From Streptomyces sp. NBC_00286 (GTDB lineage: Bacteria > Actinomycetota > Actinomycetes > Streptomycetales > Streptomycetaceae): DNA of 64,000 nt. The stretch is taken from contig NZ_CP108054.1 in the NCBI RefSeq assembly GCF_036173125.1, positions 496,001 to 560,000 of the forward strand, read 5' to 3'. Positions 38,885 to 53,118 of this stretch are shown here, piece after piece; the stretch's first letter is position 1, and every line of letters begins with the position of its first letter. Both the position numbers and the translations under genes were made by a program. The notes under the pieces are model-generated. The model made no database searches and was not told where the DNA came from. It saw nothing but the letters and a program-made list of their open reading frames with translations.

Positions 38885-39337
38885 TCACCCGCACCCCGAG
38901 GCAAAGGCCGCCCACACCGTGTTCCCCCCGGTGAGAACGGAGCGCTCGGCGCCCCACGCGTCCGCGAAGTGCTCCACGAGTAACAGTCCACGGCCGCCTT
39001 CGTCCTCCGGGCTCGGGTCGCGTGGGGGCAGGGTCCGCGCCGTGAGGCCCTCGTCGTGCACTTCGAGGTGGAGCAGCCGGTCCGCGGTGAGGCCGGCGCA
39101 GCAGAGGATCCGCGCACTGGGAGTGTGGCGTATCGCGTTCGTGACCAGCTCGGAAAGGATCAGGAGCGCGTCCTCGCGCACCTGCTCGGGCAGTCGCCAG
39201 GTGCGCAGCCGCTCGCCCATTACGCGCCGGGCTTCACCGACGCCGGCCGGGCATGCCTTGAGTTCGAGCCAGTGGACCCTGGACGGGGCGGTGCCGGCCA
39301 GGAGTTGGGGGGAGGGAGGGGACGTAAGGGAGGGCAC
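38885..39337 (-). CDS. RsbW-type ATP-binding regulatory protein (first cassette)
   Basis: This 150-residue single-domain HATPase has the N-box LILSELVTNAIRHT and the G-box DEGGRGLLLVEHFADAWG. Proteins of this type in Streptomyces are anti-sigma-like kinases that often sit beside XRE-DUF5753/DUF397 genes. It is divergent from such a pair here. The predicted start is a GTG. A second copy of the same arrangement is at 53664-55279. Confidence 0.85.
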   Translation of the reverse strand: MPSLTSPPSPQLLAGTAPSRVHWLELKACPAGVGEARRVMGERLRTWRLPEQVREDALLILSELVTNAIRHTPSARILCCAGLTADRLLHLEVHDEGLTARTLPPRDPSPEDEGGRGLLLVEHFADAWGAERSVLTGGNTVWAAFASGCG

Positions 39338-50775: not shown

Positions 50776-51028
50776 GTGAGCGGATCCAGGGAACTGGGCA
50801 GGGCGCTGCGTGGCTGGCGCGACCGTACGGCCCCCGCAGCGGTGGGAGTGCCCGCCGGCGGAGTACGGCGGGCCGCCGGGCTGAGACGCGAGGAACTGGC
50901 GCAGTTCGCCAGCCTGTCGGTGGACTACATCGTCCGCCTGGAACAGGGCCGGGCGACCTCCCCCTCACCGCAGGTGCTGTCCGCGCTGGCCCGCGCCCTG
51001 CGGCTGTCGGCGGCCGAACGTGAACACC
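50776..51028 (+). pseudogene. Truncated XRE (MmyB-like) regulator
   Basis: From a GTG the frame reads ELGRALRGWRDRTAPAAVGV, then GLRREELAQFASLSVDYIVR and ALRLSAAEREH, the conserved N-terminal part of MmyB-like regulators. After that it loses similarity, where LYRVAG and the ligand domain should follow. About 180 residues are missing. It is divergent from the SDR gene, the usual arrangement for this family, so the SDR has probably lost its local regulator. Confidence 0.7.
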
Positions 51029-51391
51029 ATCCTTCAGGAAGAGCTCGCTGGTGGGCATCCGGCTCTCATTCCCACACTCGGCGGCAGTCGGGGCGCGCTG
51101 ATCTCGCGGATCTCACGCGCGACATCCAATCTTGCCTGACTTGCCATGCCTTACGCCCAGGCCAGACGCAAGTTCCGTGACATGAGTGTCACGTTGAGCG
51201 ACCCAAGAGGGCGAATTCATTGCGGAATGTGGCAGATAGGCACCTCGCTGTGACATTCGGCTGGGTGTGCCCCCTTCCGCAGCCTGGCCGAGAACCACTT
51301 ACGCCCACATACGGCCGTCTTGCGCTCCTTTTTGACCGGCTCTGACACTCATGACCAGCGGGGCGTGCTTCATGACCGTGAGGGGGACCCC
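51029..51391. other. Intergenic region upstream of the TGT-like gene
   Basis: These 363 bases contain no supported gene. The first part may hold further debris of the truncated regulator. The only clear element is the GTGACA/TGTCAC inverted repeat at 51177. The promoter of the following gene should lie between about 51180 and 51390. Confidence 0.5.
51177..51192. promoter_or_regulatory. Inverted repeat GTGACATGAGTGTCAC
   Basis: Perfect 6-base arms GTGACA and TGTCAC around TGAG, 200 bases before the TGT-like gene. The arm shares GTGACA with the GGTGACAC octamers of the two HATPase/XRE cassettes, so it could be a related operator. Confidence 0.45.
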
Positions 51392-52498
51392 ATGGGGGGC
51401 GACGGGATCGAGGGCTTACTGCGCGACCGGTTACTGATCATGGTGAACGACAGGTCGGCGATCGGCCTGCTTCCGCACATCGACGGAAACGCCGGAGGCC
51501 TGCTTCTCACAGGTGTCGACGCGGCGCTGAGGTGCCGGAACATACGCAACAGTTACCCGGACACGGTCGTTGCCGTCGACTACGGCGGCCACGAGCACCG
51601 GGTCGCAACCGTCGACCGGCCCTTCGGCTACCAGGCGGCCGGCGGCTGGCACGCACTCGACTCCTCCGGCCTGGAGGAGGTCCTGAACGGCCAGTTGGCC
51701 AACAAGGCGGCGTTCGCGGTGACCCCGACCTGCTTCATACCGCCGGACGAGGAGGGCGACGCCCGCGTCCTGCATGCGGTGATCGCCCAGGCCAACCGGC
51801 TGGAGCGGACGGACACGGTCGTTGTGCTGCCGTGCAGCTACCGCTGGCTGCGGGGCGAGTCGCTGCTGCACCTGGTGATGGCGGTACGGGCCAGCCGGCA
51901 CCCCGTGGCGTTGATCATGCAGCACTCCAAGGACCCGTTGGAGCGGGTGGGTGTGGCCGAGGGCCTGCACGTGCTGTGCCGGTCGTGTCCGCGCCTGTTG
52001 CTGTGGCGCACGGACCTGGCGGCCTTCGACGCGCTGGCGCACGGGGCGTTGGGCACGGCGGTGGGAGTCACCGCCATGCTCCGTCACGGCATGGACCCGC
52101 GCCGGAAGGGCCGGGGCTGGCGGCCGTATCCGGTGGTGCTGGTCCGCGAGTTGCTGAAGTACCACCGGGTGGAGGTGCTCCAGGACTGGTTCGCGCGCGT
52201 CGAACCGTGGACGTGCGGGTGCGCGGTCTGCGAGGGCGCCGAGTTGTCGCGCTTCAGCGAGAGCAACGCCGACGTGCGCGAGTCGCAGCGGCACAACACG
52301 TGCGAGTTGTACGCGCTGCACGACGAATTGATCTCGGCCGATGCGGGCCAGGACCGGCTGGAGTGGTGGCGACAGATCGTCGACGACGCGGTTGCGCGGC
52401 ATCACCTGCTGACCTCCGACCTCGGGGAGGAGGTCGCGCATCCTCCGGTGCTGCACTACTGGCAGCGGGCGAGCCCGCCGGCGGTTCCGCTGCCGTGA
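51392..52498 (+). CDS. Unrecognised protein with tRNA-guanine-transglycosylase-like zinc motif; two TTA codons
   Basis: The ATG was chosen behind GAGGGGGA. The 368-residue product has no signal peptide or membrane segment. I do not recognise the family with certainty. Near the C-terminus C275-x-C277-x2-C280-x20-H301 (WTCGCAVCEG, then QRHNTCELYALHDEL) closely resembles the zinc site of tRNA-guanine transglycosylases (C-x-C-x2-C-x25-H). Alternating strands and helices before it (VVVLPCSYRWL, PVALIMQHSKDP, GTAVGVTAMLRHGMDP) could form the matching TIM barrel. The standard nucleophile motif is not evident. Codons 9 and 14 are TTA (51416 and 51431), which in Streptomyces need the bldA tRNA, so translation should be developmentally controlled. 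The gene stands alone. Confidence 0.75.
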   Translation: MGGDGIEGLLRDRLLIMVNDRSAIGLLPHIDGNAGGLLLTGVDAALRCRNIRNSYPDTVVAVDYGGHEHRVATVDRPFGYQAAGGWHALDSSGLEEVLNGQLANKAAFAVTPTCFIPPDEEGDARVLHAVIAQANRLERTDTVVVLPCSYRWLRGESLLHLVMAVRASRHPVALIMQHSKDPLERVGVAEGLHVLCRSCPRLLLWRTDLAAFDALAHGALGTAVGVTAMLRHGMDPRRKGRGWRPYPVVLVRELLKYHRVEVLQDWFARVEPWTCGCAVCEGAELSRFSESNADVRESQRHNTCELYALHDELISADAGQDRLEWWRQIVDDAVARHHLLTSDLGEEVAHPPVLHYWQRASPPAVPLP

Positions 52499-52560: not shown

Positions 52561-53118
52561 TCAGGAGCCATACAGCGCCCCGCCATCGGAGGCCGACATC
52601 TGGTCATTGTCCGGGTCCGTCGTCTTGGGCTCGAAGCGGAGTACGGCTCCCGAAGCGTTGGTCTTCTTCACGGTGACCTTGACTCCGTTGGTGAGCCCCA
52701 GGAAACCGGTGCCTTTGATATAGCCGGACACACTGTTCAACTCCGCGCGATCGACCTCGAACGTCACCTCGTCCGGGCTGACGTAGGTGAGGAGGAACCT
52801 GGTGAAGCCGAGCTTGGGGTCCAGGGGAATGCGAGCGGCGCCGCGGATGACGATCTCGCAGTCGGCGTCCCTGCACGCCTTCAGGTCGGAGCCGTCCGCC
52901 GCGCTGAGTGCGGGCGGCGCGGATGTCTTCTGGGGGCTGGGGCTGCTGGTGGCTGTCCGACTGGGCGTCGCGGTGGACTTGCTGGGTGTCGCGGTGGACT
53001 TGCTCGGGGCCTCACCGGAGTCGTCCGCCGTCGAGGAACACGCGGTGACGGGCAGGAGAAGCGTCGTGATGAGCAACGGCAACTGGAGCGCACGCTTGAC
53101 CGTGGTCGAATACTTCAT
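52561..53118 (-). CDS. Lipoprotein of unknown function
   Basis: This 185-residue protein starts behind AGAGGGGG. It has a lipoprotein signal with lipobox VTAC, then a Ser/Thr/Pro-rich linker containing a repeated SKSTATP unit (about 40-70). The folded domain of about 110 residues (DADCEIVIRGAARIPLDPKL, TYVSPDEVTFEVDRAEL) is predicted all-beta with one CxxxxC pair. It resembles uncharacterised Streptomyces surface lipoproteins. Confidence 0.8.
   Translation of the reverse strand: MKYSTTVKRALQLPLLITTLLLPVTACSSTADDSGEAPSKSTATPSKSTATPSRTATSSPSPQKTSAPPALSAADGSDLKACRDADCEIVIRGAARIPLDPKLGFTRFLLTYVSPDEVTFEVDRAELNSVSGYIKGTGFLGLTNGVKVTVKKTNASGAVLRFEPKTTDPDNDQMSASDGGALYGS

Follow-up and report, generated by a model that had tools for sequence, protein, structure and literature searches.

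The 64,000-nucleotide stretch of the Streptomyces sp. NBC_00286 genome analysed here (contig NZ_CP108054.1, positions 496,001 to 560,000; hereafter the window) encodes a 368-residue protein, C0, whose predicted model is a TIM barrel of the tRNA-guanine transglycosylase (TGT) type spanning nearly the whole chain. TGTs are textbook enzymes, and their well-known relatives serve 7-deazaguanine chemistry. By prediction, C0 is a divergent, uncharacterised TIM-barrel protein of the TGT superfamily. Its zinc ligands are conserved, its gene is under purifying selection, and many of its relatives elsewhere lie in a conserved module whose partner genes, C1 and C2, are missing around the copy in the window. 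We propose that C0 is the effector of this module, with a rebuilt active centre, orphaned here and placed under a TTA-codon brake; to this explanation as a whole we assign a probability of about 0.42.

Fold, zinc site and conservation of C0

The C0 gene shows strong codon-position bias, with a GC content at third codon positions (GC3) of 0.91, and occurs once in its genome (Table 1). The closest genomes with available DNA are those of S. canus 299MFChir4.1 (L002; 94% identical) and Streptomyces sp. cf386 (L003; 92%). The ratio of nonsynonymous to synonymous substitution rates (dN/dS) is 0.166 against the former and 0.177 against the latter (0.15 to 0.18 among the three genomes), indicating that C0 is a gene under purifying selection. 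A preliminary description of the window, made from its letters alone, had placed the protein in no known family; indeed, C0 has no match in Pfam, PHROG or NCBIfam up to an expectation value (E) of 10, and a sequence search of PDB with C0 found no relative.

The same description had suggested a transglycosylase-like protein on a TIM barrel, and the predicted model bears out the barrel. Profile alignment with hhalign pairs the zinc-site residues of C0 with the Cys and His residues of TGT (P = 6.6e-5) and, in three alignments, pairs Asp63 with TGT Asp102; the N-terminal part alone aligns weakly (P = 0.046). C0 shares with TGT (PF01702; Z. mobilis TGT, 5v3c and 1pud; arcTGT, 1iq8) the predicted barrel and the order of three Cys and one His, and members of the C0 family have an Asp or Glu at the end of beta-3, apparently at the place of the TGT Asp. 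Unlike TGT, C0 has no match to the PF01702 profile up to E 10, nor has any of 10 relatives scanned, and the positions of the nucleophile and of base recognition are apparently changed.

C0 relatives number at least 49 by protein search and at least 56 by profile search. The protein searches scored about 8,000 candidates sharing most words, relatives outside these nets being missed. Those with a named source all belong to the Actinomycetota; nearly all are labelled 'hypothetical protein', although TGT-like names appear on a few UniRef entries. A scan of genome contigs yielded 27 loci in 13 genera (Streptomyces, Psychromicrobium, Nonomuraea, Planotetraspora, Microbacterium, Gordonia, Plantibacter, Microlunatus, Actinacidiphila, Rhizohabitans, Agromyces, Catelliglobosispora and Nocardiopsis), all through one conserved peptide pattern, relatives without it being missed; a scan of viral contigs found none. 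Within Streptomyces, the family is present in 18 of 295 drawn genomes, that of the window included, and is therefore an accessory gene. Some copies are in pieces. Genome G331 holds two fragments in different frames (L066/L076; query residues 5-53 and 238-366), adjoining a match over nearly the whole length of C1, and G469 (L075) holds a short C-terminal part of C0 only.

The preliminary description had pointed to C-x-C-x2-C-x20-H near the end of C0 and had staked its reading on the conservation of these residues in homologues. C275-x-C277-x2-C280-x20-H301 is invariant in all 53 rows of one alignment and all 77 rows of a wider one. The protein would bind metal at this predicted zinc site; TGT itself has a C-x-C-x2-C...H zinc site. 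The 77 rows represent 73 different proteins, four of which occur twice, from two sources, and leave out the window's own copy (already in as P0001), L002, L015 and L022. P112, W152 and G218 are also invariant; G225 and R231 are kept in 74 rows, R206 in 73 and D208 in 72, and position 63 is Asp in 69 and Glu in 8.

Table 1. Features of the C0 gene in the window
Feature	Position	Strand	Basis
Likely ribosome-binding site GAGGGGG, 5 bases before ATG	51380..51386	+	Sequence reading, inference
Coding sequence of TGT-fold protein C0, 368 residues	51392..52498	+	Open reading frame, fold model, dN/dS
TTA codon 9	51416..51418	+	Common to window, L002 and L003
TTA codon 14, within predicted strand beta-1 (residues 13-19)	51431..51433	+	Common to window, L002 and L003
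Asp63, end of beta-3, aligned with TGT general acid/base Asp102	51578..51580	+	
Thr111-Pro112-Thr113, end of beta-4; Thr113 at the place of TGT Asp156 (presumed base-recognising)	51722..51730	+	
R206-T-D-L-A...D-x-x-A-H-G-A219, end of beta-7 and next helix; family signature	52007..52048	+	
Gly225, end of beta-8, apparent place of TGT nucleophile Asp280 (mapped by eye)	52064..52066	+	
Predicted zinc site C275-x-C277-x2-C280-x20-H301	52214..52294	+	

An apparently rebuilt active centre

The TGT nucleophile is Asp280 and the general acid/base is Asp102 (PMC4425180). Asp63 of C0 ends beta-3, as Asp102 does in TGT. Two further TGT landmarks are used here with roles that we presume, namely Asp156, which we take to recognise the base, and the arginine of the PTR motif. 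The TGT motif D-x-V-x-P-T-R is absent from C0 on reading. The predicted strand before the zinc domain (221-225) ends in Gly225, and the preceding strand (202-205) is followed by R206-T207-D208. Counting back from the conserved Arg231, taken by eye as the PTR Arg, puts Gly225 at the place of Asp280. That the preliminary description found no usual catalytic Asp motif is borne out: on this mapping by eye, the place of the Asp appears as Gly in 74 of 77 rows and as Asp in 3. A near-invariant polar cluster (D63 or E, T111-P-T113, W152, R206-T207-D208 and R231) lies at the C-terminal ends of the barrel strands, and the C0 active centre is apparently rebuilt relative to that of TGT.

Asp at position 225 occurs only in three Nocardiopsis proteins (L026, L027 and L028), all of which lack Asp208. 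That the sole rows with Asp225 fall among the five without Asp208 is as an Asp swap would predict, and such a pattern, seen in one small clade, would be expected of a catalytic Asp that has moved. In L024 and L025, position 225 is Gly and Asp208 is missing, so both Asp residues are absent. The Nocardiopsis proteins are divergent and lack the Arg-Thr-Asp at 206-208, and neither C1 nor C2 is found in the available DNA surrounding their genes.

Conserved neighbours elsewhere and the orphan copy in the window

Neighbours were identified by home-made gene calling and tblastn. C1 encodes a protein of about 205 residues and lies downstream of C0 in convergent orientation at 22 of 27 loci (weakly at L022). 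It adjoins C0 in 15 of the 18 genus-survey genomes, and the tails of the two genes are -59 to +29 nucleotides apart at the 19 loci measured. No Pfam family is common to the 19 C1 members. The predicted C1 model (predicted local distance difference test 89; predicted template modelling score 0.81) looks like a winged helix-turn-helix (wHTH) set in a nuclease-like alpha/beta fold, a weak match. C2 lies directly upstream of C0 on the same strand at 15 of 27 loci; of the 18 genus-survey genomes, 12 have it. The one member scanned is an XRE plus Peptidase_M78 (ImmA/IrrE) protein, HExxH is kept in 15 of 15 C2 proteins, and the C2 tested matches the PADLOC RmrA models (E = 1e-52). A small wHTH-like gene precedes C1 at eight loci; in five it is C3, which matches HTH families weakly, and in three it is C10, which matches none. 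The locus sets overlap, L059 being the L002 locus and L060 the L004 locus.

RosmerTA pairs the ImmA-type antitoxin RmrA with varied RmrT toxins and defends against phage (accessible part of PMC10440598). As in RosmerTA, an XRE-ImmA gene, RmrA-like where tested, stands directly upstream of an effector candidate at the 15 C2-bearing loci. In contrast, no TGT-fold toxin candidate is named in that part of the source, the C0 module has the extra convergent C1, and the copy of C0 in the window has no antitoxin gene beside it. Searches of an open-access literature collection listed no TGT-fold protein in an ImmA module, some of them being dominated by unrelated words and of little weight. The conserved gene set around C0 relatives looks like a stress or anti-phage module.

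We also sampled 89 neighbour proteins at 10 loci out of 136 listed at 11 loci (all of L024 being left out), and considered library matches to the first 25 of 130 and the first 25 of 85 families. Among the matches listed, neighbours matched Septu PtuA (E = 1e-125, L011) and some restriction and other defence models. A defence-island reading was rejected, with integrases in 3 of 89 and recombinases in 3 of 89 neighbour proteins among the same matches. Ten neighbour proteins were scanned singly, and nine have no PADLOC match at 1e-20. In Streptomyces sp. TSRI0281, the Septu PtuA-like gene (L011:5802-7322, minus strand) and a complete C2-C0-C1 module are separated by about 1.5 kb.

The preliminary description had proposed a search for the gene neighbours of the family and did not see the conserved ones; C1 and C2 are conserved in other genomes and absent at the window's own locus. 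A tblastn search detects neither gene in the window or in the 10 kb flanking the L002 and L003 copies; the L004-L006 relatives, at about 60% identity, have C1 but no C2. A search of the window's genome aimed at C1 finds one distant relative, roughly 500 kb from the C0 gene and 44 kb from a contig end. This lone relative (L078:7941-8585, minus strand; own genome C1:43982-44497) is far from the C0 gene. Two small genes beside it resemble a RelE-type pair, the 86-residue member having no Pfam match, and a gene near it is presumably transposase-like.

The place held by C1 elsewhere is occupied in the window by a predicted 185-residue gene (52561-53118, minus strand), convergent with C0. Its product has no Pfam match, is secreted or lipoprotein-like on reading, and is not matched by C1 proteins. 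Upstream, an XRE (HTH_31) frame (50779-51138, plus strand) contains a junction near 51028 into DNA matching that upstream of the gene in L002 and L003. This junction looks like a recombination joint that cut an XRE regulator short just upstream of C0.

C0 carries TTA at codons 9 and 14, as first described. The accompanying statement that these are the only in-frame TTA codons in the window was nearly right: its 56 predicted genes (home-made caller) contain three in 17,611 codons, two in C0 and one at codon 80 of a predicted 111-residue gene (38885-39220, minus strand). Because codon 14 lies in predicted beta-1 and most relatives carry the aligned segment, both are in real coding sequence. Both are kept in the window, L002 and L003, copies with a GC3 of 0.90 to 0.92 in which shared Leu sites have a different codon at 10 of 44 (window versus L002) and 12 of 44 (window versus L003) places. 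In relatives about 60% identical, TTA stands at other places or is missing. Support for the suggested bldA control comes from the two in-frame codons, conserved only in the window's close clade, and for the whole family the idea that TTA codons mark a conserved bldA gene was rejected. Counted over the aligned stretch only, with L059, L060 and L076 left out as second copies of counted loci, TTA occurs in 7 of the 11 Streptomyces members that lack C2 and in 2 of the 16 that have it (Fisher p = 0.011), only a hint, the rows without C2 being mostly one clade and including two gene fragments (L066, L075).

Proposed role, alternatives and substrate

We envisage an actinobacterial accessory module made up of an XRE-ImmA/IrrE protease-regulator of the RosmerTA-antitoxin type, the TGT-fold protein as its likely effector, the convergent wHTH/nuclease-like-fold protein and sometimes a small wHTH protein. 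The ImmA protein would restrain the effector until stress or infection triggers its release. The released effector would bind nucleic acid in the manner of TGT and attack an N-glycosidic bond with its rebuilt centre, using Asp63 and, in place of Asp280 on beta-8, Asp208 on beta-7; exchange or removal of a base, on some substrate that is not 7-deazaguanine, would be the outcome. In the window's Streptomyces clade, the gene has become an orphan under purifying selection, and the two early TTA codons, and hence the bldA tRNA, may serve as a translational brake in place of the partners that were lost.

Several points weigh against this explanation. The hhalign probability is modest (39 over the whole length, 64 in the C-terminal half), and alignment of residues 30-240 by themselves yielded P = 0.22. 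The mapping of Asp280 to Gly225 was made by eye from strand order, in a stretch that hhalign left unaligned. Five of 77 rows (L024-L028) lack D208, and two of these, L024 and L025, keep C1. The neighbour survey of defence families was run without a control set, and for a toxin-antitoxin pair the convergent arrangement of C1 is unusual. Because the window locus has neither partner, the module is borrowed from relatives, and an orphan locus that retains a free toxin is awkward to explain.

Close behind the effector explanation, though itself unlikely, comes a non-catalytic TGT relative, a zinc TIM barrel that binds RNA or DNA as a sensor, adaptor or partner in a QTRTD1-like role. That 74 of 77 rows have Gly where the nucleophile apparently belongs would fit such a protein, as would the zinc-site residues being the best-kept part of the family. 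QTRT2/QTRTD1, the non-nucleophile subunit of eukaryotic TGT, offers a precedent, its zinc ligands being kept and its nucleophile position changed, as apparently in C0; in QTRTD1, Glu stands in place of Asp280 (PMC4425180). However, the polar cluster at the strand ends is conserved beyond what a scaffold needs, and the window's genome, unlike the QTRT2/QTRTD1 setting, encodes no catalytic TGT partner by PF01702. We consider it improbable that C0 is a 7-deazaguanine base-exchange enzyme on tRNA or DNA like TGT or DpdA, the idea nearest to the preliminary description, despite the TGT fold, the zinc-site residues and the TGT-like UniRef names. Full-length QueC, mostly missing from C0 hosts in a further difference from TGT, is found in 5 of 41 genomes carrying the family or pieces of it (42 given, L006 not covered); the tally of 26 of 41 includes 21 genomes with short partial matches in long frames, among them the window's own, whose match covers 70 positions. 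A PF01702 search of that genome up to E 10 found no TGT (14 of 14 controls matched); PF01702 TGT occurs in 115 of 198 genomes drawn from the phylum and in none of 8 genus genomes listed, the window's included. Because QueC is mostly not full-length and no TGT was found in the window's genome, the family as a whole is unlikely to exchange 7-deazaguanine, although uptake of 7-deazaguanine bases from outside may occur in C0 hosts. Further, the base-recognising Asp position appears to be Thr113. As to DpdA, C0 has no NCBIfam or PADLOC match, and the conserved neighbours are C1, C2 and the small wHTH gene. DpdA in Dpd islands and the GNAT-TGT part of BRC do place TGT homologues outside tRNA modification in a genome-conflict setting (PMC12839542), but the partners of the C0 family differ, being an ImmA protease-regulator and a wHTH/nuclease-like-fold protein. 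The initial interpretation is supported in part: neither of the findings it named as refuting, a fold lacking the barrel or unconserved Cys and His residues, was obtained, and the base exchange it proposed stays putative and is unlikely for 7-deazaguanine.

Equally improbable is a bldA-timed metabolic enzyme of development or secondary metabolism with a small-molecule substrate. Two TTA codons kept in three genomes speak for it, as does an S. coelicolor paper cited in its support (PMC2000904), but the TTA places are not kept in relatives about 60% identical, and the conserved neighbours in many other genomes are regulator-like, not metabolic. Nine window stretches scanned around C0 (a hydrolase, a rhamnosidase, dehydrogenases, regulators and one protein without a family) show no obvious biosynthetic core. 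Least probable is a decaying orphan of a lost module without present function; both partners are missing near the gene and split or partial copies exist in G331 and G469, but this option is already weakened by the dN/dS among the three genomes, and the frame is intact and the invariant residues are kept.

The most specific form of our proposal is a new effector class, in which a TGT-barrel enzyme with its catalytic Asp moved from beta-8 to beta-7 has turned from 7-deazaguanine exchange to another base exchange or removal on RNA or DNA within an ImmA-controlled three- to four-gene module, two TTA codons near the start having taken over control in the window's clade. We hold this version to be slightly more doubtful than the non-catalytic alternative. 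If true, this TGT-barrel family would widen what the fold does and add an effector type to RosmerTA-like systems. It poses a testable question, whether a TGT barrel can act as a toxin or modifier without the beta-8 aspartate, and would give genes so far annotated only as 'hypothetical protein' a role that can be tested.
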